DNA of 52,731 nucleotides from a virus. Position numbers and translations under genes: made by a program. Position 1 is the first letter of the stretch. The number at the start of each line of letters is the position of its first letter. The notes below the pieces were generated by a model that worked only from the letters and a program-made list of their open reading frames with translations, searched no databases and was not told the origin of the DNA. Shown one piece after another: positions 3,619 through 47,200 of the stretch. The stretch covers positions 1 to 52,731 of the IMG/VR virus record IMGVR_UViG_3300050343_000104, one strand, 5' to 3'.

Positions 3619-3645
3619 AGTATTAAATTTTATTTGTTACACATT

Positions 3646-3679
3646 TATTATCTTGTAGAGTGCGTATTTTATCTGCAAC
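3646..3679 (-). promoter_or_regulatory. Early promoter-like element, copy D
   Basis: Minus strand: TTGCAGATAAAATACG, ten-base gap, AGATAATA, a consensus match. It lies immediately after the stop of the gene at 3681-3872 and 27 nt before the ATG at 3618. Confidence 0.75.
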
Positions 3680-4567: not shown

Positions 4568-4610
4568 AGTTTTATTAGTTTATAGTATTTATTATTATTA
4601 ATTTCACATT

Positions 4611-4645
4611 TATTATCTTTAGAGTTGCGTATTTATATCTGCAAC
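4611..4645 (-). promoter_or_regulatory. Early promoter-like element, copy E
   Basis: Minus strand: TTGCAGATATAAATACG, ten-base gap, AGATAATA. This copy has one extra base between GCAGA and TACG. It precedes the four-gene cluster 4567-3681 with a 43-nt leader. Confidence 0.7.
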
Positions 4646-5128: not shown

Positions 5129-5418
5129 TTATTTATTTTGACAGTTATTTAAGGTCGAAAGCGTATAGCAAACGTAGTCGATCGAGTTCATTATTATAGT
5201 AATGTCTCTAGTGTAATAGTAGTTACTACGTTTTGCATTATAATTAGTGCGTTTAACTTTAGTGTTAATTTGGTATAGTTTTACACCACGTCTTCTGAAG
5301 TATGGTATGATCTTTAGAGACTCACTCTAACATAACCGGATCTATAGGTGTAACCTAATCTACCGTCACTCATTTCACATTTAATTGTACCGTTTTTACT
5401 GATGTTTAATACTTTCAT
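5129..5418 (-). pseudogene. Small gene with one apparent frameshift (about 95 aa)
   Basis: The frame from the ATG at 5418 reads MKVLNISKNGTIKCEM, then RLGYTYRSGYVRVSL and stops near 5314. Dropping one base there continues as KIIPYFRRRGVKLYQINTK and on to TAA at 5129-5131. The two halves together make a plausible basic, beta-rich protein of about 95 residues that fills the gap between neighbours exactly. The family is not recognised. A single inserted base (sequencing or mutation) is the simplest explanation. Confidence 0.5.
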
Positions 5419-5429
5419 AGTTATTTATT

Positions 5430-5606
5430 TTAGTTATATACTGTTTCTATTAGGTCGTGTACTAGATCTTCTTCAGACTCACCATCTTCTGGTATACAGT
5501 CAAGTTCTACAAATTCTTTAATTCTTTGTTCGATTTTTTCTCTACTTTCATAGTAAGACTCAAATTTAAAGTGGTCTACTGTGTCTTCATTCCAATTGTA
5601 CTTCAT
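5430..5606 (-). CDS. Small acidic hypothetical protein (58 aa)
   Basis: Complete frame from ATG at 5606 to TAA at 5430-5432. The product (MKYNWNEDTVDHFKFESYYE, then KIEQRIKEFVELDC and a Glu-rich tail) is strongly acidic. It follows promoter copy F with a 36-nt leader and the recurrent ATAGTTATT motif at the start. Small acidic early phage proteins can be host-takeover factors, but nothing here identifies a target. Confidence 0.62.
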   Translation of the reverse strand: MKYNWNEDTVDHFKFESYYESREKIEQRIKEFVELDCIPEDGESEEDLVHDLIETVYN

Positions 5607-5612
5607 AGTTAT

Positions 5613-5720
5613 TTATTTATTAGTTAATTTATTTATCACTTTTAATATCTTTTTATAGTCGTAATTTGTCTGCAACTCTATGACAACGTGTCGGTACACT
5701 ATGTCATGTCGAATTGTCAT
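5613..5720 (-). CDS. Possible small ORF overlapping promoter copy F (35 aa)
   Basis: An ATG at 5720 opens a 35-codon frame (MTIRHDIVYRHVVIELQTNY, then DYKKILKVINK) ending at 5613. It overlaps copy F, just as other copies overlap the 3' ends of genes. In the same frame the sequence is open a little further upstream (RDYFSKKG), so it may be the tail of a slightly longer or frameshifted gene starting near 5766. No leader motif is seen before the ATG. Confidence 0.35.
   Translation of the reverse strand: MTIRHDIVYRHVVIELQTNYDYKKILKVINKLTNK
5643..5676 (-). promoter_or_regulatory. Early promoter-like element, copy F
   Basis: Minus strand: TTGCAGACAAATTACG, ten-base gap, AGATATTA (one substitution from AGATAATA). 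It lies upstream of the gene at 5430-5606. Confidence 0.68.
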
Positions 5721-5752
5721 ACCCTTTTTACTAAAATAATCTCTGATATTCA

Positions 5753-5787
5753 GTAGTTTTCACCAAAAACGTGTAATTATAATAGTA
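5753..5787 (+). promoter_or_regulatory. Late promoter-like element L1, inside the early region
   Basis: Plus strand: GTAGTTTTCACC, then AAAAACGTGTAATTATAATA, with the same spacing as the copies at 7447, 16960 and 32660 (17 bases from GTAG to the end of ACGTG). No plus-strand gene follows; a foldable sequence begins about 20 nt downstream. Transcription from here would be antisense to the early genes at 5936-7141. Confidence 0.65.
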
Positions 5788-5805
5788 TTTATAAAAACTC
5801 TTCTT

Positions 5806-5905
5806 TTAGTGTAATTTAGTTATATAGAGTTAACTTACTCACTGGTCTTATAGTGAGTCTCTGACTCTACTTTGTTAGTTTTACCTAACTAAATAGTATA
5901 TTTAC
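5806..5905 (+). ncRNA. Candidate structured RNA downstream of L1
   Basis: Three nested stems can be drawn by eye. ATTTAGTT (5814-5821) pairs with AACTAAAT (5887-5894), extended below a bulge by AGTGTA (5808-5813) with TACACT (5903-5908). TAGAGT (5825-5830) pairs with ACTCTA (5864-5869). ACTCACT (5837-5843) pairs with AGTGAGT (5852-5858) around an eight-base loop. No reading frame of note covers the stretch on the plus strand. It directly follows the late-type promoter L1. On the minus strand the same hairpin would lie in the 3' region of the gene at 5936-6094, so a processing or termination role there is the alternative. Confidence 0.45.
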
Positions 5906-5935
5906 ACTTAAATACCTTAGTGAGATCCGTTTTTA

Positions 5936-6094
5936 CTACATCGACCTAAATTCTTTATTGAAAAACCTAATTAGTTCGGTTGTAGTGAACTTCTTCCTCC
6001 ACTGAGTTGTCTGTTCGATCCAGTGGTACTCACCGCATTTCTCTACATTTCCGTCATTCATCCATTCTAACATTTCTTTAGTTACTTCATACAT
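5936..6094 (-). CDS. Small hypothetical protein (52 aa)
   Basis: Complete frame from ATG at 6094 to TAG at 5936-5938. The product starts MYEVTKEMLEWMNDGNVEKC, then has HWIEQTTQWRKKFTTTELI and a basic, aromatic end (RFFNKEFRSM). It follows promoter copy G with a 41-nt leader. No family is recognised; it is a single-gene unit followed by the hairpin region at 5806-5905. Confidence 0.6.
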   Translation of the reverse strand: MYEVTKEMLEWMNDGNVEKCGEYHWIEQTTQWRKKFTTTELIRFFNKEFRSM

Positions 6095-6135
6095 AGTTAT
6101 TATATTTAATTATTAGTATTTTTTATATTCACTTA

Positions 6136-6169
6136 TATTATCTATTTAGGTGCGTGTTTCGTCTGCGAT
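6136..6169 (-). promoter_or_regulatory. Early promoter-like element, copy G
   Basis: Minus strand: TCGCAGACGAAACACG, ten-base gap, AGATAATA. The 10-mer GTGTATAGCA lies immediately upstream (6169-6178 in plus coordinates), as it does in copy H. Confidence 0.7.
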
Positions 6170-6190
6170 GCTATACACAAACCGTCTGCA

Positions 6191-6250
6191 ATCGGTGAGA
6201 TTTGCCTACGGAACATAGGTATGCTATACACCCGTGGTAGATTCACCGAT
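6191..6250. other. Inverted repeat and promoter relic between early genes
   Basis: ATCGGTGA (6191-6198) and TCACCGAT (6243-6250) form a perfect eight-base-pair inverted repeat with a 44-nt loop containing TGCTATACAC and CCTA/TAGG. Just before it, CCGTCTGCAAT (6182-6192) is the outer half of the early promoter without its AGATAATA box, suggesting a truncated duplicate. It is placed 3' of the gene at 6280-6597, so it could act as its terminator, although no U-run follows. Confidence 0.4.
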
Positions 6251-6279
6251 GTTTTGGTTAGTTAGCCGAAGCTATAAGC

Positions 6280-6597
6280 CTACTTTTTAGTAGACTTAGC
6301 TTCAGTTATAGTTGCCAGATGTCTGACAGTGCTCGGTAAGTTAGTACTTTGTGACCAGTACTTTCTTTTGATCCAGCAAGCCTGTAATTGTAGCTTAGGC
6401 AGCATTGCATTTAGTATTGTGTCATGACAGTACGTCACAGTTTGATTTTTATTGTTGATGAAAGTTATCTGTTGATTGCGGCCGAGCCAGCTTTCTCTTA
6501 CAACAAAGTTCTTTCTGGTTAGCGGTGGCCAGATCGCTGCTTTTTCTGAGTTAGACATAGTTTTTAGAGCTTTTTGCATTAATTCATTTGTAGTCAT
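6280..6597 (-). CDS. Basic hypothetical protein (105 aa)
   Basis: The product starts MTTNELMQKALKTMSNSEKA, then has RESWLGRNQQITFINNKNQ and a basic C-terminus rich in Lys, Arg and Trp (CWIKRKYWSQSTNLP). I do not recognise it. A small basic soluble protein with a helical N-terminus could bind nucleic acid, which is inference. It starts at 6597 after a long AT-rich leader (55 nt) from promoter copy H and is the only gene of that unit. Confidence 0.62.
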   Translation of the reverse strand: MTTNELMQKALKTMSNSEKAAIWPPLTRKNFVVRESWLGRNQQITFINNKNQTVTYCHDTILNAMLPKLQLQACWIKRKYWSQSTNLPSTVRHLATITEAKSTKK

Positions 6598-6652
6598 AAT
6601 TTTAAATTTTAAGTTATTATTATTATTATTAGTTATTTACTTTATTCACTTA

Positions 6653-6686
6653 TATTATCATAAACACAACGTATTCCGTCTGCAAT
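6653..6686 (-). promoter_or_regulatory. Early promoter-like element, copy H
   Basis: Minus strand: TTGCAGACGGAATACG, ten-base gap, TGATAATA (first base of the box differs). GTGTATAGCA lies directly upstream (6686-6695) and again at 6720-6729. Confidence 0.7.
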
Positions 6687-6729
6687 GCTATACACAGATC
6701 CAGCTGTAAAAATGCTATATGCTATACAC

Positions 6730-6800
6730 GCCGGACCCCGGCTGGTTACCTCCGAGGTCAATTAGCTGAGATCATCCCATCTCACACCAGGATCCGTGTG
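6730..6800 (-). terminator. Three adjacent short hairpins, possible terminator
   Basis: GCCGG-ACC-CCGGC (6730-6742), GAGAT-CATCCC-ATCTC (6768-6783) and CACAC-CAGGATCC-GTGTG (6783-6800) lie in a row, directly 3' of the minus-strand gene ending at 6803. The first is strongly GC-rich for this genome. There is no clear U-run, so factor-dependent termination, RNA stabilisation or processing are alternatives. Confidence 0.4.
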
Positions 6801-6802
6801 CT

Positions 6803-6955
6803 TTAGACTGACGCCCAGAACAGATCTTGCTGCTCTGGACTTAAGCCCTTTAGATTATCCTGCCCGAACATATCTTGGCAGATTTGTGTGCGTCTGATAG
6901 ACTCGTCATACTTTGCTGAGATCCTGTCCCAGGCTTGTGAATTTGTTTCGTACAT
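6803..6955 (-). CDS. Small hypothetical protein (50 aa)
   Basis: Complete frame from ATG at 6955 to TAA at 6803-6805. The product has MYETNSQAWDRISAKYDESI (residues 1-20), then GQDNLKGLSPEQQDLFWASV at the C-terminus, a soluble helical protein. It is the third gene of a run of three tiny genes separated by only 1-2 bp after promoter copy I. Its base composition is noticeably less AT-rich than that of its neighbours. Function unknown. Confidence 0.6.
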   Translation of the reverse strand: MYETNSQAWDRISAKYDESIRRTQICQDMFGQDNLKGLSPEQQDLFWASV

Positions 6956-6957
6956 AA

Positions 6958-7062
6958 TTAATTGATTTGTGTTAGTGAGTTAAGGTATTCGACAGCCAGT
7001 GCCAGTTCATAGTCGTAGTTCAGTGCCTGAGTGTACAGGTATTCTTCATTATAGTTTTCCAT
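6958..7062 (-). CDS. Micro-protein (34 aa)
   Basis: Complete frame from ATG at 7062 to TAA at 6958-6960. The acidic, Tyr-rich helix MENYNEEYLYTQALNYDYEL continues ALAVEYLNSLTQIN. It sits 2 bp from the next start and 1 bp from the previous stop, which supports it as a translated gene despite its size. Function unknown. Confidence 0.5.
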   Translation of the reverse strand: MENYNEEYLYTQALNYDYELALAVEYLNSLTQIN

Positions 7063-7063
7063 T

Positions 7064-7141
7064 TTAGTTTCGTATTGCGGCAGCTGCAGCTGATCCCAGG
7101 TTAGACATTACTTCATTCATTTTAATTAAGATTGCTTTCAT
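7064..7141 (-). CDS. Micro-protein (25 aa)
   Basis: The frame from ATG at 7141 to TAA at 7064-7066 encodes MKAILIKMNEVMSN followed by LGSAAAAAIRN. It is the first gene after promoter copy I (leader about 40 nt) and has only 1 bp before the next gene. It could be a leader peptide or a real micro-protein; the Ala run near the end is notable. Confidence 0.42.
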   Translation of the reverse strand: MKAILIKMNEVMSNLGSAAAAAIRN

Positions 7142-7181
7142 AAGATTTAATTTAATTATTATTATTATTTATATTCAACTA

Positions 7182-7215
7182 TATTATCTAGTGAACAACG
7201 TAAACCGTCTGCAAA
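7182..7215 (-). promoter_or_regulatory. Early promoter-like element, copy I
   Basis: Minus strand: TTTGCAGACGGTTTACG, ten-base gap, AGATAATA. A variant of the 10-mer (GCGTATAGCA) lies directly upstream. This is the first early element, divergent from the late promoter L2 230 bp away. Confidence 0.7.
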
Positions 7216-7446
7216 TGCTATACGCGCTACGCTGCGCTGCGCTGCTATAATACGTAGCAATCCAATAGCCAGAAGCAAAGTGCTAAATACCCTGGATAAA
7301 ATGCCTGGCAAAAGGCAAAAGTTATTTACTAAACCCTAAAACAAAAGGGGGACTGGGTAAAATGAATTGCGTTTTCTGTAGGAAAAAGTTTTTTTAAATA
7401 AGCATGTAGCCCTATACCTCTTATTATATAATAATGGTTTTTACCT
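7216..7446. other. Divergent intergenic region between early and late blocks
   Basis: No gene is supported here. The stretch has a threefold GCTGC repeat (7230-7244) inside a hairpin closed by GCTACG and CGTAGC, a TTTTTTT run near 7390 and the palindrome TATTATATAATA at 7423-7434. A minus-strand frame (7329-7511) crosses it but overlaps the L2 promoter and has no protein-like character. Confidence 0.5.
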
Positions 7447-7481
7447 GTAGCTTTCGGAAAAAACGTGTAATTATATATAAC
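7447..7481 (+). promoter_or_regulatory. Late promoter-like element L2
   Basis: Plus strand: GTAGCTTTCGG, then AAAAAACGTGTAATTATATA, followed by ATAACC. It lies 20 bp before the first late gene (7502) and shares the spacing of L1, L3 and L4. Confidence 0.75.
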
Positions 7482-7501: not shown

Positions 7502-7801
7502 ATGGCTTCAAAACAAAAATTATCGCCTGTGGCTAGAAAAGCAAAAGCGAAGAGAGACCTAGCTTATGCTAAGACGGCGGATAGACGTAAAAAGAAAGCA
7601 CATGCACAGAGAGAAAGGCGTAGAGCTAAACGTAGCGGGAAAAATGTTGATGGGCTAGATTGGGATCATAAAGATGGGCGATGGGAAAAGATTTCACGTA
7701 ATAGGGCTAATGACGGAGAGGGGACTAAAAAAGAAGGCAAAAAGAAATATAAGGTACCGAAGCGCAAGCGAAGGGCTAAAACTAAAAAGAAAAAGAAATG
7801 A
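7502..7801 (+). CDS. Small highly basic protein (99 aa)
   Basis: More than a third of the residues are Lys or Arg. It has an N-terminal KLSPVARKAKAKRDLAYAKT segment, a central GKNVDGLDWDHKDGRWEKIS (residues about 46-65), and a Lys-rich tail ending in six Lys. The central 'DWDH..G.w..v..NRGN.G.GTKKEG' pattern recurs in small basic proteins of marine phages; the role is unknown, but DNA binding inside the virion is plausible. First gene after L2; its TGA overlaps the next ATG (ATGA), so the two are translationally coupled. Confidence 0.72.
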   Translation: MASKQKLSPVARKAKAKRDLAYAKTADRRKKKAHAQRERRRAKRSGKNVDGLDWDHKDGRWEKISRNRANDGEGTKKEGKKKYKVPKRKRRAKTKKKKK

Positions 7802-16959: not shown

Positions 16960-16994
16960 GTAGTTTTTTTAAATTACGTGTGATTATATAATAA
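16960..16994 (+). promoter_or_regulatory. Late promoter-like element L3
   Basis: Plus strand: GTAGTTTTTTTAAATT, then ACGTGTGATTATATAATA (one base differs from the consensus). It lies 11 bp before the groEL start codon, giving the chaperonin genes their own promoter. Confidence 0.72.
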
Positions 16995-17005
16995 AATCTA
17001 ATTAA

Positions 17006-18548
17006 ATGAATCAAATAGTAAAACAATTTAGCTTTGGAGACAAAGGTAGAGAAAAAGTGTTTAAAGGTATCGAAACACTTACTGAAGCCGTAGCATCAAC
17101 ACTAGGAGGGAGGCGGTGAATGTGTAATTTTTGAGGATGCCCAGGGAATACCTGTAATAACTAAAGACGGTGTAACGGTAGCAGAATTATCTGTATTATT
17201 AGATCCTGTAGAAAATATGGGGGCATCACTAGTTAAAGCAAGCAGCAAGAAGAACAGTAGCTGAAGCAGGAGATGGCACAACGACTTCTACAGTGTTAGC
17301 TCACGCAATTTTAAAAGAGTTTGCTAAGTCGCCAGTTAAATTTACTAGTAGAGAAAAACGTGATGCTATAAATAATGTAGTAGATAAAGTTTTAAATAAC
17401 TTAGATAAACAAGCTAAGCCGGTAAATGGCGACATGATTGATGAGGTAGCTACAATATCTACAAATAATGATGCTAGAATTAGGCAAGCTGATAGCAGAT
17501 GCTTATAGAGCTGTAGATTTAACTGGAGTTGTTATGATGGAAACATCACAAGATGGTAATACTACAATTGAAGTCGTTGAAGGGGTGCAATATGAAAAAG
17601 GGTTTACGAATAATCACTTTGTAACAAATCACGCAAGCAATACAGCGGAGTTAAATAATCCTAAAATATTATTAATTGATTCGGCGGTTGATACTATAAG
17701 ACAGATACAAACAGTACTAGAACATGTTATAAAAAACAACATAGCTTTACTAATAGTAGGAGATGTTGATGCAAAAGTAGCAGCTGCTCTTGCAATGAAT
17801 AAAAACAAAGGAGCTATAAAAGTTAATATAGTGCCAGCACCTACTCATGGTGTTAATAGAAAAGAAATATTTGATGATTTAGCTTTGTTAACCGGAGCAA
17901 CAGTTATAAGCGAAAATTTAGGAGACGATTTAGATTTAATTGATTTAGATTGCTTAGGAACTTGCATTAAAGCTGTATCTACATTTAAAGACACGGTTTT
18001 TCAAATACAAGAAGATCAGTCAGAAGATATAAAATTAATAATAGAAAGTATAAAGGAACAACTTCTTATAGAAAGTAATCCTAATAAAATAGTTAAACTA
18101 GAAAAAAGATTAGCTATGTTATCCGCAAAGCTTGCAATAGTTAAAGTTGGAGGTAATTCGGATGTTGAGTTAAATGAAAAGAAAGATAGAGTAGAAGACG
18201 CAATATGCGCGACTAAAGCTGCTATAAAAGAAGGTGTGGTTGCCGGTGGCGGAGTTGCACTTATAAATGCCGCAAGAAATATAAAAACTAAATTAGCTAG
18301 TGAACAATTAGTTATAGAGGTCTTTGTATTATCCTTGCAAAACAATAATGAAAAACGCTGGTTTAGAATACGAAGACATTAATAAAAAAAATGTAGGAGT
18401 TAATGTAGAAACCGGTAAAACGGTTAATATGTTTAAAGCAGGTATTATTGATCCAGTATTAGTTACAAAATCTGCGCTAAAAAACGCAGCCTCAGTTGCT
18501 TCGACAATATTGTCTACCAACTGTGTTATGTCTAACGTAAGAGGATAA
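17006..18548 (+). CDS. groEL: Phage chaperonin GroEL (frameshifted)
   Basis: This group I chaperonin is about 513 residues long when frames are joined. Recognisable blocks: FGDKGREKVFKGIETL; VITKDGVTVAELSVLLDPVE with ENMGASLVK; AEAGDGTTTSTVLAHAI (the ATP-binding AGDGTTT motif); TNNDARI-KLIADAYRA; and VEDAICATKAAIKEGVVAGG with GGGVAL near the end. The C-terminus ends without a GGM tail. Four apparent indels interrupt it: near 17108 (extra G), 17236-17258, 17482 (extra A) and 18320. The largest intact parts are 17293-17508, 17468-18382 and 18324-18548. It is divergent from bacterial GroEL, so a phage chaperonin for its own capsid or fibres is likely. The breaks may be sequencing errors or real decay; groES directly follows and is intact. 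Confidence 0.82.
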
Positions 18549-24225: not shown

Positions 24226-24442
24226 AGAATTAGTAAAGGTAGCAAAAGAAAAGATCGTTGACTCAGAGGAGGATATATCCGCTGACAGACTTAAAAATGC
24301 TGCCGCTACTAAAAAACTTTGCATATTTGACGCTTTTGAAATATTAAACAAAATACAAGAAGAAGAGCAAATGATTTTAGACTCTAGTAATAAAGAAAGT
24401 AAACCTGCTTTTAAAGGGTTTGCGGAGGGGAGATCTAAATAA
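24170..24442 (+). CDS. Helical protein just upstream of terminase, candidate small terminase (90 aa)
   Basis: Mostly helical: KKNIIAAGREAIKELVKVAK, then ISADRLKNAAATKKLCIFDA and FEILNKIQEEEQMILD. Its gene overlaps the upstream gene by 56 bp and its last base is the first base of the terminase start codon. Position and helical nature fit a small terminase subunit or packaging accessory, but no DNA-binding motif can be assigned with certainty. Confidence 0.58.
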   Translation: MSSIETKKNIIAAGREAIKELVKVAKEKIVDSEEDISADRLKNAAATKKLCIFDAFEILNKIQEEEQMILDSSNKESKPAFKGFAEGRSK

Positions 24443-25251
24443 TGGCTTACGAACAAACGTTATATAAAGTAGTTAATGATTACATTAAACCTGCTATAAT
24501 TAAAAAAAAGAATCGCTATTCTAAGTGGGATTACGGCTATAACAAAGAACACGATGTCGTTGTAATTAGCAAGTCCGGAAAAATAGGTGATATATACGAA
24601 ATTGGTAATGTGATGATTGCATTACCCAAAACAGAAAATGTAAAAAACTTAGGGGACAACAAATGGAAAGCCGCTGAATATCCTAAGTTATTAAAAAAAA
24701 TTAAAAGTGTTCAAGATTGGAACGCTTACCCAAATAGTTTTAAAGAACAATGGCATCCATATATAGATGAAGAATTTGAAAGACGTGAAAAAGGGTTTTG
24801 GTTTATTAATAAAAGCAAGCCTACTTACATTACTGGCACTCACTATATGTACCTGCAGTGGTCCAAAATTGATGTTGGATTACCGGACTTTAGAGAATCA
24901 AATAGATTATTCTATATATTTTGGGAAGCCTGCAAAGCGGATTCAAGATCGTACGGTATTTGTTACCTTAAAAATCGACGCTCTGGATTTTCATTCATGT
25001 CGTCGGGAGAAACAGTTAATTCAGCTACGATATCTTCAGACTCTAGATTCGGTATACTGTCCAAATCGGGGGCTGATGCTAAAAAAATGTTTACGGATAA
25101 AGTTGTACCAATCTCGGTAAACTATCCGTTTTTCTTTAAACCAATACAAGACGGTATGGACCGTCCAAAAACAGAGTTAGCTTACAGAGTGCCCGCTTCT
25201 AAATTTACAAGGCGAAAACTAGAGGACAATCAAATGCAGCTCAAGAATTAG
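24442..25251 (+). CDS. terL: Terminase large subunit, N-terminal part (ATPase)
   Basis: This is the N-terminal 269 residues of the packaging motor. Key region: CYLKNRRSGFSFMSSGETVN (residues about 174-193) is the atypical Walker A (RRSGFS), then FGILSKSGADAKKMFTDKVV and FFKPIQDGMDRPKTELAYRV are family-typical. This frame ends at TAG 25249. The coding sequence continues in another frame from about 25235 (AAQELDGLDTTIDW), so one base has been lost from the A-run at 25231-25234. The true gene is 24442-26657, about 738 residues. Confidence 0.86.
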   Translation: MAYEQTLYKVVNDYIKPAIIKKKNRYSKWDYGYNKEHDVVVISKSGKIGDIYEIGNVMIALPKTENVKNLGDNKWKAAEYPKLLKKIKSVQDWNAYPNSFKEQWHPYIDEEFERREKGFWFINKSKPTYITGTHYMYLQWSKIDVGLPDFRESNRLFYIFWEACKADSRSYGICYLKNRRSGFSFMSSGETVNSATISSDSRFGILSKSGADAKKMFTDKVVPISVNYPFFFKPIQDGMDRPKTELAYRVPASKFTRRKLEDNQMQLKN

Positions 25252-26657
25252 ACGGATTAGACACAACTATTGACTGGAAAAATACAGGTGATAATAGTTA
25301 TGATGGTGAAAAACTAAAACTATTAGTGCACGATGAAAGCGGTAAATGGGAAAAGCCTACAAATATACTTAACAACTGGCGAGTAACAAAAACTTGTTTA
25401 AGATTAGGTAGTAGAATTATTGGAAAGTGTATGATGGGATCAACATCAAACGCTTTGGATAAAGGCGGCAAAAACTTTAAAAAATTATACGACGGCTCGG
25501 ATACGTTATTAAGAAATAAAAATGGGCAAACTAAAACAGGTTTATATAAACTTTTTATTCCTATGGAATGGAATTATGAGGGTTTTATTGATCAGTACGG
25601 CTATCCTGTGTTTGATGTTCCAAAAAAAGAAACATTAGACCCTCAAGGAAATTTAATTACAGAGGGAGTAATACAGCACTGGGAAAACGAAGTTGAAGGA
25701 TTAAAAGATGATGCAGATGCATTAAACGAATATTATCGGCAATTTCCTCGTACAGAACAACACGCTTTTAGAGATGAGGCTAAACAATCTTTATTTAATT
25801 TAACTAAAATTTATCAGCAAATAGATTATAACGAAGAATTAAGAAATTCTTCAATGGTTACGCAAGGTAATTTTCAATGGGAGAACGGGATAAAAGATAC
25901 TAAAGTTATTTTTTACCCAAATAAAAGCGGAAGATTTTTTATTACCTGGGTTCCAAGCATAAGCCAACAAAATAATATAATAATAAAAAATGGAAATAAA
26001 TATCCTGGCAATGAGCACATGGGAGCTTTTGGATGTGATAGCTATGATATTAGCGGGGTTGTTGGTGGCGGCGGATCTAACGGATCACTTCATGGACTAA
26101 CTAAATTTTCTATGGAAGACGCACCTATAAATCATTTTTTTTTAGAATACATAGCTAGACCTGCAACTGCAGAAATGTTTTTTGAAGATGTACTTATGGC
26201 TATTGTGTTTTATGGAATGCCTTTATTAGCAGAAAATAACAAGCCTAGACTTCTTTATTATTTAAAAAGAAGAGGATACAGGGGCTTTAGTATTAACAGG
26301 CCAGATAAAACATATAACAAATTATCTTTAGCTGAGAAAGAAATAGGGGGAATACCTAATTCAAGTGAAGATATAAAACAAGCGCATGCAGCAGCCATAG
26401 AAACTTATGTAGAAGAATTCGTGGGAGAAATGAAAACAGGTTACGGCGACATTTATTTGCAAAGAACATTAGAGGACTGGGCAAGATTTGATATAAACAA
26501 CAGAACTAAGCACGATGCTTCCATAAGCTCCGGGTTAGCATTAATGGCTTGTAATAAACATAGGTATAGCCCTAAGGGCGCTATAAAAACTAAAACATAT
26601 TCTTTAGGTTTTAAAAAATATAACAACGAGGGATCTACTTCAAAAATAATACAATAA
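25250..26657 (+). CDS. terL: Terminase large subunit, C-terminal part (ATPase and nuclease)
   Basis: Continuation of the terminase after the frameshift; the first in-frame ATG of this frame is at 25485 and the first methionine-free stretch (HDESGKWEKPTNILNNWRV) begins near 25326. KLLVHDESGKW (nt about 25310-25345) is the Walker B with catalytic acid. GAFGCDSYDISGVVGGGG (nt about 26020-26075) starts the RNase H-like nuclease with its first Asp. LIASR-type and family motifs LQRTLEDWARFDINNRTKHD near the end agree with a full terminase. TAA at 26655 is directly followed by the portal start. Confidence 0.85.
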
Positions 26658-30246: not shown

Positions 30247-31722
30247 ATGAGTTTATTACCACAATTTGGGACTATTGTCCCATCACAAACGCAATCATTA
30301 CTTGCGACAAATTACCTACAATGGAACAACAATGGCGGAGCCGCTGGAGTCCCAGGGAACTTTGCTGACTTTGCTCAGCAGTATTTACCAGAAATCTACG
30401 AAGCAGAAGTAGAGCGTTATGGAAACAGAACGTTATCTGGATTTTTAAGAATGGTTGGTGCTGAAATGCCAATGACATCTGATCAAGTTATTTGGTCTGA
30501 ACAAAACCGCCTGCATATATCTTACACAGATGTAGAGCTTGGAGCAGTAGATGGGACTAAGCAAATCGTTGATTTGAATAACGCAGCTGTTGCAGGAGTA
30601 CAAAACGTAATCTCTATTAATGACACAGTTGTTGTATTAGATCCAACTACTGGAAAAGAGGCTAAAGGTATTGTTACTGAATCAGGAGCTAATGCAGGAT
30701 CATTACTTGCTGCGGACTCTATTAAAATTCAAGTATTTTCAGGGCAAACATTTACTGCTTTAGGATTTACAGCTACAGGATTAAAGGTATTCGTTTACGG
30801 ATCTGATTATTCTAAAGGAACTACAATTGGAGCTGGTGCTGGAAATTCAGCAGCTAGAGTAAGTGTAGAGCCAGTATTAACTCAGTATTCTAACTCTCCT
30901 ATTATTATAAGAGATCAGTATGTTGTATCTGGATCTGATACCGCGCAAATCGGATGGGTAAATGTTGCTACTGAAGATGGAACTGACGGATACTTATGGT
31001 ATTTAAAAGCTGAATCTGAAACACGTTTACGTTTTGAGGATTACTTAGAAATGGCAATGGTAGAAGGTGAATTAAATGCATCTGCTCTTAATCCATTAAC
31101 TCAGCCAGGAACACAAGGTTTATTTGCAGCTATTCAAGATAGAGGTAATGTAGAAACTGGGTTTACTGCAGGTGGTGGATTAGCGGAATTTGATGCTATC
31201 CTTAAAAACCTAGATACACAAGGAGCAATTGAGGAAAACATGTTATTCTTAAACAGAGCCACAGCTTTAGATTTTGATGATATGCTTGCTGCTATTTCTA
31301 GCGGAGCTGCTGGAGGTGTTGCTTTTGGATTATTTGAAAATTCAGAAGATATGGCTCTTAACTTAGGATTCAGCGGATTCCGTAGAGGATCTTATGACTT
31401 TTACAAAACAGATTGGAAATACCTAAATGATGCATCTACTCGTGGAGCAATTGATGGTATTAATTCAATTGAAGGAGTATTGGTACCAGCTGGAACTTCA
31501 ACTGTATATGATCAAGTTTTAGGAACTAACATTCGTCGTCCATTCTTGCACGTACGATACAGAGCCTCTCAGACCGATGATCGTAGAATGAAGTCTTGGT
31601 TAACAGGATCTGTTGGAGGCGCTAGTAACTCAACTCTTGATGCAATGGAAGTAAACTTCCTATCTGAAAGATGTTTGATTACTCAGGCAGCTAACAACTT
31701 TGTATTATTCAGAGGAGCATAA
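30247..31722 (+). CDS. Major capsid protein (491 aa)
   Basis: An HK97-fold coat protein type by context and pattern: FADFAQQYLPEIYEAEVERY near the N-terminus, VIWSEQNRLHISYTDVELGA, a central beta domain, MVEGELNASALNPLTQPGTQ, then ESETRLRFEDYLEMAMVEGE and the C-terminal AMEVNFLSERCLITQAANNF. The last block is a strong signature of the capsid proteins of crAss-like and related Bacteroidota phages. It lies 2 bp after the scaffold gene and is followed by a strong hairpin. Codon use is enriched in preferred-looking codons (ACT, GGA, CCA) as in highly expressed genes. Confidence 0.85.
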   Translation: MSLLPQFGTIVPSQTQSLLATNYLQWNNNGGAAGVPGNFADFAQQYLPEIYEAEVERYGNRTLSGFLRMVGAEMPMTSDQVIWSEQNRLHISYTDVELGAVDGTKQIVDLNNAAVAGVQNVISINDTVVVLDPTTGKEAKGIVTESGANAGSLLAADSIKIQVFSGQTFTALGFTATGLKVFVYGSDYSKGTTIGAGAGNSAARVSVEPVLTQYSNSPIIIRDQYVVSGSDTAQIGWVNVATEDGTDGYLWYLKAESETRLRFEDYLEMAMVEGELNASALNPLTQPGTQGLFAAIQDRGNVETGFTAGGGLAEFDAILKNLDTQGAIEENMLFLNRATALDFDDMLAAISSGAAGGVAFGLFENSEDMALNLGFSGFRRGSYDFYKTDWKYLNDASTRGAIDGINSIEGVLVPAGTSTVYDQVLGTNIRRPFLHVRYRASQTDDRRMKSWLTGSVGGASNSTLDAMEVNFLSERCLITQAANNFVLFRGA

Positions 31723-31802: not shown

Positions 31803-32660
31803 ATGGCAAATAAAAAAACAGCAACTAAAAAAGTTGCACCACAAGAACCTATTACAGATGGGTTACCAGTACAAACAGAAACAGTTAAGCCAACTAAACA
31901 GGCACCTGTTCAACCAGCAAAACCTAAATGGGAAATCAAAGATAGAATATATTTCTTATTAGGAAGACATACTCCTTTAACTCATACAATACCGGTAAGG
32001 CATACTAGAAAACATGCTTTGCTTTATTTTAATGAAGAAACAGGAAAACAAGAAGAACTAAGATACGCTACTAATCACGATTCGCCTTTTAAAAGTGAAC
32101 AAGAGGGAGAAGCTACCTTAGGGCATATAATGTTTAAAGATGGAGACTTAAGAGTCCCTAAAGAAAAACAAAATTTACAAAAGCTACTTTCATTATATCA
32201 TCCTATGAAAGGCAGGATATATGAAGAATATGATCCAGTAGAGGAAGCTTTTGACGATTTAGAATTACTAGACTTACAAACAGATGCAGCAGTATTTGCA
32301 AGAGATATGGATATTGACGACGCAGAGGCTATACTAAGAGTAGAAATGGGTAGTGCAGTCAGCAAATTATCTTCTAAAGAAATAAAAAGAGATTTAAGAA
32401 TATTTGCAAATAGAAACCCTGAGTTATTTTTAAACTTAGCTAATGATGACAATGTTCAGTTGCGTAATGTAGCTATAAAAGCTACCGAAGCAAACATAAT
32501 TAATTTATCTCAGGATCAACGAACTTTTTCTTGGGCATCTAACGGGCGGAAGCTAATGTCCGTGCCTTTTGATGAGAACCCATATTCAGCTATGGCGGCT
32601 TTTTTCAAAACGGACGAAGGTGTTGAAGTATATAGATCTATAGAAAAAAAGTTTAATTAG
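31803..32660 (+). CDS. Conserved virion-type protein (285 aa)
   Basis: Lys/Thr/Pro-rich disordered start (KKTATKKVAPQEPITDGLP), then a conserved block KPKWEIKDRIYFLLGRHTPL and IPVRHTRKHALLYFNEETGK, then a helical middle (DLELLDLQTDAAVFARDMDI), and C-terminal QDQRTFSWASNGRKLMSVPF. A recurring protein between capsid and connector genes in marine Bacteroidota phages; role unknown, possibly a head accessory or cement protein. Confidence 0.66.
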   Translation: MANKKTATKKVAPQEPITDGLPVQTETVKPTKQAPVQPAKPKWEIKDRIYFLLGRHTPLTHTIPVRHTRKHALLYFNEETGKQEELRYATNHDSPFKSEQEGEATLGHIMFKDGDLRVPKEKQNLQKLLSLYHPMKGRIYEEYDPVEEAFDDLELLDLQTDAAVFARDMDIDDAEAILRVEMGSAVSKLSSKEIKRDLRIFANRNPELFLNLANDDNVQLRNVAIKATEANIINLSQDQRTFSWASNGRKLMSVPFDENPYSAMAAFFKTDEGVEVYRSIEKKFN

Positions 32661-32694
32661 TAGTTTTTTAAAAAAACACGTAATTATATTATAG
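32660..32694 (+). promoter_or_regulatory. Late promoter-like element L4
   Basis: Plus strand: GTAGTTTTTTAAAA, then AAACACGTAATTATATTATA (ACACG in place of ACGTG). It directly follows the stop of the gene at 31803-32660 and precedes the connector operon by 66 bp. Confidence 0.7.
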
Positions 32695-32759: not shown

Positions 32760-33677
32760 ATGGCAGTAAATGTAGACATAGTTTATAAAACGGTGTTGCT
32801 TATTCTTAATAAAGAACAGAGAGGTAACCTATCACCAGATGAATTTAACAAAGTTGCAACGCAAGTTCAGTTAGAAATATTTGAAAGTTATTTTGACACA
32901 GTAAATCAACAACTTAGAAGACCCGATAATGACACCGAGTACGGGGATAGAATTAAAAACGTTGATCAAGACATATCTATATTTAAAAAATACGGTGTTG
33001 CTGACTATAATTCTGCAGGCGGGTATTTTACTTTGCCTACAGCTTCTGGAGCTACAGCTGCAGTACAAAATTTTACAGGAGACGGGACAACTTCCTTGTT
33101 TCCGTTTACATCAATAACGTCTTCTCAATTAGCAAGCAGCGTAATATCAGTTACTATTAACGGGGTATTAACTACTGCTTATTCAATTAGTGGAGCTAAT
33201 ATAATATTTAGCACTATACCTGCAAATAATGACGCTATAGTCGTTACGGCGACTCCTGAGGACTTTTACAGATTGGGCACTGTTATATATAAAGACGAAA
33301 AAGAAGCTCAACTGGTGCAGCGAAATGAGATCCTGTACTTAAATTCTACACCTATAATAGCACCTACAGAAACTTATCCTGTTTATTTATATGAGGATAA
33401 AAAATTATATTTATATCCAAAGACTATAGCATCGGACATAACCATTAGCTATTTACGAAAACCTTTAGACGTAATTTGGAATTTTATAATACCATCGGGC
33501 CAAAATTATTATCAATATAACCCCACAAATTCTACGGATTTTGAATTATCAAAAACAGAACAAACTAATATAATATTAAAAATATTACTTTATTCGGGTA
33601 TTGTTATTAGAGACCCTTCGGTTATTCAGGTAGCCTCACAACAAGTTCAACAAGAAGTACAACGTTCAACACTATAA
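32760..33677 (+). CDS. Head-to-tail connector / adaptor protein (305 aa)
   Basis: The N-terminal part (VDIVYKTVLLILNKEQRGNL, then PDEFNKVATQVQLEIFESYF) and C-terminal part (KTEQTNIILKILLYSGIVIR) are conserved helices of a family of adaptor or ring proteins in podoviruses of this kind. In between (residues about 100-165) is an inserted beta domain QNFTGDGTTSLFPFTSITSS with SVISVTINGVLTTAYSISGA, like domains in tail fibres. The context of promoter L4, the portal upstream and the tail genes downstream supports a connector. Confidence 0.7.
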   Translation: MAVNVDIVYKTVLLILNKEQRGNLSPDEFNKVATQVQLEIFESYFDTVNQQLRRPDNDTEYGDRIKNVDQDISIFKKYGVADYNSAGGYFTLPTASGATAAVQNFTGDGTTSLFPFTSITSSQLASSVISVTINGVLTTAYSISGANIIFSTIPANNDAIVVTATPEDFYRLGTVIYKDEKEAQLVQRNEILYLNSTPIIAPTETYPVYLYEDKKLYLYPKTIASDITISYLRKPLDVIWNFIIPSGQNYYQYNPTNSTDFELSKTEQTNIILKILLYSGIVIRDPSVIQVASQQVQQEVQRSTL

Positions 33678-44211: not shown

Positions 44212-47200
44212 ATGATTAAATACTTAATAGAAGGAATCGTTGAAACTTTTGACTCTCAAGAAGAAGCTAATGCTTATATAGCTGCGCTAGGACCGGGGGT
44301 TAGTGTGCAATTAGTGGACGATGATACTGATAAAGATAATAACGAAATGACCACTGACGATACAATCCTTAATCCGGATTTTCGTCAAGATGCTGCAAAG
44401 GGTGCGGATGTAGTATCGGGTCCACAACCAGCACAAGATACGGGATTAACATCGGAAGATGGTTCTTTGGACTTACCTCCTGTTGAAACATTTAATATAG
44501 ACGGAAGAGAAGTAACCAAAAAAGAGTTTGACGCTTATTCTAAAAAGCAAGAAGAAACCGAAGACGAGGTTAAAACAATGGACAATTATTTTAGCGATAC
44601 CTGGACAGGCTTTTTTGCTTCAGGAAAAGCGGCATTAGGGTCACAAGCTAGAGTTCCTACTTTCCTTAACGAATTAGCTTATAGTACAGTAGGTAATTTA
44701 TTTTTATCTGATGAGGAGAAAGAAATGATGAGTAGCCTTGATCCTAAAATAAAACAAACAATACTTAATGCTCAAGCTAATGCATCAAGCCCACTAGGCT
44801 CGCTTGCTCAAGCAGGTTTAGAGTATTACGAAGAAGCTAAGATAGCTGAAAAAGAACTGCGATCTAAAATGGAACAGTTTGATACTACTATACTAGAAGA
44901 CTTGGGGAATGGCAATATTGTTAGAGGATTGCAAAGAGCCAGCTCTAGTGCTTTGCAGTCAGCTCCATCTGTTGCGCAGTCTATGATTCCTTACATAGGC
45001 ATAGCCTCTATAGCAGCCGGTGCGGCAGCGGAGGCTTCGGCTGAAGCGCAGGAAGAAGGCAAAGATATAAATCTAAAAACCATGCTTTACGCTGGAACTA
45101 AAGGAGCCGCTGAAGGAGTTTTAGAAACAGTTACCCGGGGAATTGCCAAAGGAATGTTTAAATCATTAACTGGAAAAAGCAAAAGGTTTATAGATAAAAG
45201 CGTTAAAGAGGTAGTAGGAGGAATAATGAAGGATGCTGGTAAAGAAGGTGGCTCTGAAGGTATGACCGAAGTAATAAATGTAATAGCAGAAAATATATAT
45301 CTTGGCAAAGAAACAGGTGTTTTAGAGGGCGTCAAAAGAGTTGGGGAAGCTGCTATAGTTGGAGCTTTCATGGGAGGTAAAATGACAGGAGCGGGCGCAG
45401 CGAGAAGTGTTTTATTTAACACTGTACAAACTAACAAAGTAGATAAAAAGCTTGACCAATCCGAATTTGATAGTCTGAAAAACTCTTTTGACTTAGAAAC
45501 AGGGGTTGATCAGAACATTGTAGATCTTGTTGAGATTAGAGGAGCACTGGGTATAATAGAAAATAAAGCTAAGAAAGAGGTAAGAACAGAGCAAATAACA
45601 CAAGAGGAAGCAGACGAAATAGTTAGTAACTTCAAGGAAATAGAGACAGCTACTAGACAAACCAAAGCCGCGAAAATTGAAAAAGAATTGCAGCCAGAAA
45701 TTGTTGAAAACCTTGCTAGAAAAAATAAATTAATAAAACAAATAAAAGAAATAGATGACTCTACGCTTAGCGCTCCACTTAAGGAGAAAGTAGATCTTCT
45801 AGATACTCTGATAAAAAAAGGAACAATAGCTTCAGTAACAAATAGAAATTTAAAAAACGTTAAAAAAGTAGCTGAAGGTTTTAAAGATGTAGAAATAAAA
45901 GAAGTAGATAACAAAGAGGCTATTGAGATTGCGTCTAAAGTATCAAATAAGACTAAAGAGTCTACTGGTTATGGTTTCATATATCAGGAGGACGGCGTAA
46001 GCAAAATAGTAATTAATAAAGACGAGGTAGCTACCGACGATGTACTAAACACAGGAGCTCATGAATTTTTACATTTCGCTTTAAAAAATATATTTAAGGC
46101 AGCTAACACTGATGCTACATACGAAACGCTTGCTACATCTGTAGGGGATTTACTAGCCAGCTCAGAATTAGTTGGTGATACCCAAAGATTTAATCAAAGG
46201 TTAGAAGACTACCAAGCTGACTTTGAAAAAGGAAATATTTCTGCAGGACAATTGTTTGAAGAACAATTAGTTGTACTTAGCGAGGCTATGCTCGACGGGG
46301 AGTTTGATATAAAAAAGAATCCTAGTATTATGGCTAATCTTAAAGACTTAGCCAGAAAACTATTAAGTGTAATTGGAGTTAAAGCTAAATTTAACTCTGA
46401 TGAAGACGTATTAAACTTTATAAAAGATTACAACAGGTCTATAAGCAAAGGTAAATTTACTTTAGGTCAAAAACGATTAATAAAAGAGGGAGCTAAAGGC
46501 AAACTAATTACTAAAGGTAAAACAAAAAATAAAAAAGAGGCTGTTAAGCAATCCATGAGTAAGAAAATGGATCGTTTAATGAATCAACAAGAGGCTTTAG
46601 TTTCAATGGAGGGTATCTTGGATGCTGCAGAGTTAGATATAATGAAGCAGGAAAACCAACAAAAAATCGATGAACTAAAAGTTAAAGAAGGAGGGATATC
46701 TAAACTAACTACTGCCAAAAAAGCGTCTAAAGAGCCAATGACATTAGAGGAAGCTGACGAAGCTTACGAAGATGCATTAGAGGCATGGAATGAAGCTCCT
46801 GATAACGACGCATTAGAAGCTGAAGTTGAAAAAGCACTTAAAGCGGTTGCAGTTGCTAAAGAACGTTTTGACGAAGGAATGGAAGCTCCTGTAGAAGTTA
46901 AAGCAGAAGAAAAATCTACTGCAAAACCTGTTAGAGAAAAGAAAGATCGTTCTACTAAAAGATATACACTTACAGACGAAGCTAAAGCTAAAGTTGAACC
47001 TTTGATAGAAGAGGCTCAAGCAATGAATAAAGAGTTAAGAGCCGAAGAGAAAAGATTGAATGACGAAAGGATAGCTAAAATAAGAGCTACCCCTGAATCA
47101 GAAATGTCAAGGACTGAACAAGCTAATGCGGTATTGCAAGCTAAAGCTAATCCAATAAGATTAGATAAATCAGTTAAATTGCAAAGACTAGAGACTGAAA

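Follow-up and report, generated by a model that had tools for sequence, protein, structure and literature searches.

A conserved gene-free block behind an orphan middle/late-class promoter in a phage early arm: a candidate structured small RNA

Organization of the L1 locus

The window, i.e. the whole stretch of DNA analysed, is a 52.7-kb virus record of IMG/VR (IMGVR_UViG_3300050343_000104). Its genes are arranged in two opposed arms: the early arm is encoded on the minus strand and runs leftwards from ~7.2 kb, and the late arm is encoded on the plus strand and runs rightwards from position 7502. The L1 site and the conserved block behind it, together referred to as the module, lie on the plus strand inside the early arm. 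The features of the locus are as follows.

5638–5673, minus strand: early-type promoter repeat (repeat family D2) that serves gene 5430–5606; left flank of the module
5733–5741, plus strand: AT-rich AAAATAATC, directly upstream of L1 and largely kept in the other L1 modules
5753–5784, plus strand: L1 orphan promoter, GTAGTTTTCACCAAAAACGTGTAATTATA with a TATAAT-like box at 5779–5784; in 11/11 modules
5790–5935, plus strand: predicted non-coding RNA, a conserved gene-free block; nhmmer E values of 1e-21 to 1e-37, 11 modules
5808–5908, plus strand: nested arms described in the initial annotation; the complementarity is real and specific to the window subtype (3/11 modules)
5852–5871, plus strand: conserved hairpin AGU-GAGUC-UCU-GACUC-(U bulge)-ACU; RNAalifold, 11 sequences
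5920–5935, plus strand: 3' boundary motif GTGAGATCCGTTTTTA, conserved in the alignment; T-rich end, no strong stem
5936–6094, minus strand: small early gene, 52 aa, WMNDGNVE..EQTTQWRKKFT family; adjoins the module in 11/11

No plus-strand ORF of at least 40 aa was found from 5753 to about 6476, no ATG-started plus-strand ORF of 50 aa within 700 nt after L1, and no ATG in the 149-nt block at 5782–5930. No conserved or shared ORF was found in the block across the module versions. The block is AT-rich (GC content, 24–29%). The start of an RNA from L1 would lie near 5790, and its 3' end was provisionally placed at the last conserved motif. A terminator scan detected no strong terminator at the end of the block and one weak terminator-like match, which is located at the conserved hairpin; a terminator-like hairpin on the plus strand is present at 6520–6541. 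The window had no Rfam match at the curated score, and nothing credible was obtained in 5700–6000 at a relaxed cut-off.

The upstream flanks were compared in an alignment of the 11 modules with 45 nt of upstream sequence, and the AT-rich stretch at 5733–5741 is a possible upstream promoter element. In five relatives (L050, L052, L161, L162, and L164, most clearly in L161, L052, and L164), CACTT repeats spaced ~10 nt apart are found about 40–80 nt upstream of the L1 site; the window, L038, and L043 have no such repeats and carry a TGACAA..TTGTCA inverted pair in their place. The repeats or the inverted pair are possible activator or initiator sites.

The convergent gene at 5936–6094 has no confident Pfam or PHROG match. 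Inspection of its sequence revealed no type I toxin–antitoxin hallmark, i.e. the 52-aa product is charged and has no long hydrophobic segment.

Phage lineage

The terminase, portal, and major virion proteins of the window matched PHROG head-and-packaging families. The virion protein encoded at 30247–31722 matched only proteins of Flavobacterium, Cellulophaga, and Maribacter phages and of one unassigned phage, all at <60% identity. The arms of named relatives are arranged similarly: groEL belongs to the late arm, and the early arm contains, in those records in which they are annotated, an Erf-like gene and an exonuclease gene. Elemovirus and its relatives (Flavobacterium elemo phages and Maribacter phage Panino) share with the window related virion genes, opposed early and late arms, groEL, and an Erf-like gene, but in the three records of named relatives examined neither the promoter class of the window before the matching genes nor the module was found. 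A blastn search of 5400–7400 against phage records gave no match.

Two genes of the window are apparently broken. The groEL-like gene (16960–18382) is interrupted, with a short frame from the usual start followed by a 304-aa frame at 17468, whereas in relatives it is a single intact frame of 511–512 aa; the break may reflect either true decay or an assembly error. For the large subunit of the terminase, the region (24442–26657) is split into frames 24442–25251 and 25326–26657, the latter of which matches the later part of the PHROG profile only, and a frameshift, an insertion, or an assembly error may be responsible.

The promoter class of L1

When up to three mismatches were allowed, the two-part pattern GTAGYTTT-N5-AAAAYRYGTAATTATA had four matches in the window, all on the plus strand (5753, 7447, 16960, and 32660), compared with 0 matches in 100 shuffles. 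Three of these four copies precede plus-strand genes:

7447–7475, plus strand: L2 promoter, same class, 26 nt upstream of the first late gene (7502–7801)
16960–16988, plus strand: class promoter before the groEL-like region
32660–32688, plus strand: class promoter 71 nt upstream of virion gene 32760–33677 (virion family by PHROG match)

L1 is the sole copy in the window without a gene behind it; the initial annotation had also noted that no plus-strand gene follows it. It is identical to the copy at 7447 at 25 of 29 bases, and its positions 5753–5781 match exactly the class consensus, which consists of GTAGYTTT, 12–13 nt, GTRATTATA, and then a TATAAT-like box. In the homologues, the two boxes are 12 or 13 nt apart, and the 13-nt spacing found in several of them explains why the first pattern missed these promoters.

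A relaxed pattern was found in 102 stretches of viral contigs and, among the matches listed, nearly all lie directly before about six recurring genes. In the early arm of relatives, the class also precedes a 190-aa gene pair, the position of which corresponds to that of the Erf and exonuclease genes, the Erf name resting here on synteny with the named relatives. In 257 Gb of bacterial and archaeal genomes, the relaxed pattern had just 11 scattered matches; the class is thus nearly absent from bacterial genomes, indicating that it is a property of the phages and not of their hosts. The label 'late-type' originally given to L1 was right in substance, but because the class precedes the Erf-like recombination pair in the early arm, 'middle/late' is safer and more exact. 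Judged by its sequence, L1 is a genuine member of the middle/late promoter class of this lineage.

A second promoter-like site (CAAGTTTGTCGTAAAAACRYGTAATTATA or close to it) is located near the Erf-like gene in several relatives, where it is directed against the early arm with no gene behind it: L049 17617–17645 (minus strand), L014 9092–9120 (plus strand), L027 4238–4266 (minus strand), and L161 8402–8430 (minus strand). Its right half matches the late class but its left box differs, and this site was therefore not counted as a second module.

Distribution and exchange of the module

Homologues were gathered first via the neighbouring early gene 6280–6597 and then via a profile of the block (nhmmer), which added more distant copies (L161, L162/L079, L164, and L175/L186; E values of 1e-21 to 1e-28). 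The block was found in eleven distinct phage versions of about five types, every one of which lies behind an L1-class promoter; the module alignment consists of these 11 sequences, drawn from one collection. A putative non-coding unit convergent with an early gene, a layout like that of the OOP RNA of phage lambda, is present in 11/11, and whether it overlaps the 3' side of the gene would depend on where the RNA ends. The module has never been seen without the 5936–6094 gene family. The gene family occurs without the module in L053, and no module match was obtained in L189 and L192–L195. The left-side neighbour genes vary among the modules, and the genes farther along the early arm also differ among the phages.

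The window and the L066 contig share 97% identity in gene 6280–6597 and merely 63–66% in the module, and the window and L038 share 98% identity in the module and 83% in gene 6280–6597. Two module alleles that are about 65% alike (that of L043/L066 and that of the window/L038) are swapped between phages with neighbouring genes of up to 97% identity. Since the alleles are reshuffled independently of the neighbour genes, the module behaves like an exchangeable cassette whose ends are fixed and whose middle has diverged. The contig of L046/L048 (IMGVR_UViG_3300046167_000691) has both of its ends inside this region and contains two diverged copies of 6280–6597 as well as a second partial copy of the module; assemblies thus tend to be interrupted at this variable locus, as is also the case for L006, L010, and L015.

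A conserved bulged hairpin

The hairpin at 5852–5871 is conserved in spite of sequence changes in both arms: it is AUAGAGAGUG-UCUU-CACUCUACUAU in L066/L067/L065, UAGUUAGUC-UCU-GACUACACUA in L052/L161, and UAGAUAGUC-UCU-GACUACUCUA in L175/L162/L164. Double-sided changes are present at three pairs (G–C to U–A, C–G to G–C, and U–A to A–U). In the alignment, 96.6% of the cells are paired, and the covariation score and the paired fraction were reached by 0 of 500 shuffles. The consensus energy is −6.37, compared with a column-shuffle mean of −0.18 (sd 0.51, minimum −3.65), and none of 300 shuffles was as good. Folding of the individual segments on their own also produced the hairpin. A stricter requirement, an unbroken helix of five or more pairs that includes two double changes, was passed by 22 of 1500 shuffles, which makes the evidence for the hairpin good without being overwhelming; as the 11 sequences fall into about five types, only one or two events underlie each covarying pair. 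The stability of the whole block is unremarkable in several versions (z of about 0 in L052). A second small hairpin farther 3' (CTTAG..CTAAG) is plausible in most versions but weakest in the window type and its arms align poorly, and it is not claimed here.

The initial annotation had described a stable, nested three-stem fold in this block and had named conserved pairing in relatives as a test. Such pairing was found, but in the hairpin at 5852–5871 and not in the nested stems. The complementary arms are indeed present in the window (5808–5813/5903–5908, 5814–5821/5887–5894, 5825–5830/5864–5869, and 5837–5843/5852–5858), and the window, L025, and L038 constitute the subtype that has them. The stability of the fold is modest and depends on where the segment is cut: in dinucleotide shuffles of the plus strand, z was −2.3 for 5785–5935, −2.5 for 5800–5915, and −1.34 for 5782–5934, and the minus strand folds about equally well (z of −2.15 to −3.26). 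The best predicted fold has only part of the stems, i.e. both inner stems and AGTGTA/TACACT are present and ATTTAGTT/AACTAAAT is absent. Among the 11 homologues, 61.5% of the cells of the nested structure pair and covariation is not clearly above that of shuffles, and the three nested stems were therefore rejected as the form that is conserved. The innermost of these stems and the conserved hairpin are mutually exclusive in the window, because the arm AGTGAGT is common to both.

Compensatory changes alone cannot settle the strand, since the reverse complement of the alignment gives a similar consensus energy (−6.9 vs. −6.4 for the plus strand). The distance from the promoter to the hairpin is 70–72 nt in 11/11, whereas that from the hairpin to the opposing stop codon ranges from 44 to 81 nt; furthermore, L053, which has the gene, lacks both the promoter and the hairpin. 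The hairpin is thus tied to the promoter, and a plus-strand RNA is favoured.

Possible products and functions of the module

We consider that the product of L1 is probably a small, structured RNA that is non-coding and roughly 145 nt long, covering about 5790–5935, and would assign this reading a probability of ~0.55, a figure which covers the reading as a whole and not the OOP-like step described below. The promoter class, the conserved orphan site, the gene-free block, the co-varying hairpin in register, and the constant convergent gene support it at the sequence level; from these we infer the transcription of the block, its start and end, and its function. A phage non-coding RNA had been offered as one of two explanations in the initial annotation, and the gene-free block and the conserved pairing in relatives argue for it as the likely product. 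Among the observations on the other side, no strong terminator was found after the block in the scan, and the independent reshuffling of the module and the neighbour alleles does not speak for a specific partnership between the RNA and a gene.

When the middle/late programme is switched on, the candidate RNA would be transcribed in the direction of the 3' end of early gene 5936–6094 and could pair with the mRNA of this gene through the overlapping 3' region, the conserved hairpin serving stability or first contact. Such pairing would lower the expression of 5936–6094, in a layout like that of lambda OOP RNA and cII. This OOP-like effect would be the most likely mechanism in our analysis, although we propose it only tentatively.

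A stand-alone role, exerted via a binding protein or another RNA and of the kind proposed for the late small RNAs of phage PAK_P3 (PMC4933390), is about as likely as the OOP-like step. A trans-acting or protein-binding small RNA would act on host RNAs, or its bulged hairpin would be read by a phage or host protein, and its adjacency to the gene would be incidental; taken as an alternative explanation of the whole module, this is on balance unlikely. The sequence and the hairpin are kept beyond the needs of a purely cis-acting antisense RNA, the module alleles recombine freely with the neighbour genes, and late-expressed intergenic small RNAs of ~100 nt are present in phage PAK_P3 (PMC4933390). 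However, the same gene family lies beside the module in 11/11, and no excess complementarity to the early start regions of the window was detected: for pairing with these regions (leader AATAACTATG), 21 of 60 shuffled RNAs were equally good, and this candidate was rejected. A 16-nt perfect complement of the L1 block (about 5867–5882) is present in a late virion gene at 45428–45443 and is equalled by 1 of 100 shuffled RNAs; it was treated as chance, because in the relative G002, despite a near-identical module, the match was not found outside the module. A 57-nt antisense match in G002 corresponds to another, incomplete copy of the module, which is situated where the contig ends.

Transcriptional interference or read-through antisense transcription, in which the promoter is the functional part and polymerase is fired against the early operons, is improbable. 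This was the switch proposed in the initial annotation, which was thought to silence the early genes up to 7141. L1 is indeed directed into the early arm, with which it is convergent, the second promoter-like element described above, similar in sequence, likewise points at the early arm of several relatives, and an antisense stage switch has been proposed for PAK_P3, although in the opposite sense, with early RNAs directed against late genes (PMC4933390). Interference, however, leaves the conservation of about 150 nt and of a hairpin behind the promoter unexplained. Furthermore, the farther early-arm genes vary among the phages, with only 5936–6094 being constant in the eleven cases, and a plus-strand terminator-like hairpin is present at 6520–6541; general silencing of 5936–7141 is the least supported part of the initial annotation.

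The replication origins of phages T7 and T4 are transcription-dependent. The module resembles these origins in that a gene-less phage promoter is followed by a conserved AT-rich block, and L1 might accordingly activate an origin, either by making a primer or by opening AT-rich, protein-binding DNA. The low GC content of the non-coding block behind an orphan phage promoter (24–29%), the CACTT repeats with a spacing of about 10 nt that precede this promoter in several relatives, and the link between the lambda pO promoter and replication control (PMC12197685) are compatible with such a role. It is nevertheless quite improbable: the coding-strand-corrected skew, a weak and hardly informative test, did not switch clearly at the module, either in the window or in two long relatives, and the upstream repeats are absent in the window, L038, and L043.

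A minus-strand hairpin that functions as 3' untranslated region or terminator for gene 5936–6094, with L1 overlapping it by chance, is very improbable: although the minus strand folds equally well or better in some versions and the block begins close behind the stop codon of the gene in several phages, the hairpin is positioned by the promoter and not by the stop codon, L053 has the gene with neither hairpin nor promoter, and no T-run follows the hairpin on the minus strand.

Returning to the non-coding RNA, the module may represent a new family of structured phage RNA in an uncultured, marine Bacteroidota-type phage clade, which would be made from its own middle/late promoter, would occur as swappable alleles that are constant at the ends and divergent in the middle, and would either target a host factor or switch off one early gene. 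The chance of this fuller proposal seems to us somewhat short of even.

Comparison with known phage RNAs

The OOP RNA of phage lambda is convergent with its target gene, overlaps the 3' region of this gene, is transcribed from a promoter of the host type, and has a clear terminator at its end. It is a short non-coding RNA, antisense to cII, that promotes cII decay via RNase III (PMC12197685). The L1 candidate resembles OOP, as well as the oop RNA of P22, in that it would be a short non-coding RNA with its own promoter and antisense to an early gene (PMC12197685), but the predicted L1 RNA uses a phage-specific middle/late promoter and has no clear terminator. The aQ RNA of lambda and the sar RNA of P22 are also antisense RNAs from dedicated phage promoters, each of which lowers one regulatory gene (PMC12197685); however, they act on known regulators in temperate phages, whereas any overlap of the L1 RNA would be limited to the 3' end of an uncharacterised gene.

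Among lytic phages, small RNAs comparable to the L1 candidate include the band C and D RNAs of T4 and sRNA1 and sRNA2 of PAK_P3, the last two of which are intergenic, strongly expressed late, and about 100 nt long (PMC4933390). The PAK_P3 pair was discovered by expression, whereas the L1 RNA is predicted from sequence alone, and no sequence relation is claimed. PAK_P3 also produces antisense RNAs, but these are early transcripts directed mostly against late genes (PMC4933390), whereas the L1 case is the opposite. In view of lambda OOP and aQ, P22 sar, and the late small RNAs and antisense RNAs of PAK_P3 (PMC12197685, PMC4933390), the initial statement that no equivalent has been described was too strong. 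Both antisense RNAs and late small RNAs have been described from phages before; the L1 candidate would add a member with an unusual promoter, and it matches no Rfam family. Few non-coding RNAs are known from lytic phages, and none was found described for the lineage of the window in the literature searched.

Because the promoter class has a clear two-part consensus, the temporal programme of these uncultured marine phages becomes readable from sequence, and the same consensus provides a precise and cheap test in existing marine metatranscriptomes.

Minus-strand repeats of the early arm

Many early genes of the window are preceded on the minus strand by repeats consisting of GCAGAC..TACG, about 10 nt, and GATAATA, which resemble an early promoter class. 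The early-type repeats, all on the minus strand, are located at 946–981, 1939–1974, 3641–3676, 4606–4641, 5638–5673, 6131–6166, 6648–6683, and 7145–7212. The leader mentioned above is common to several early genes.
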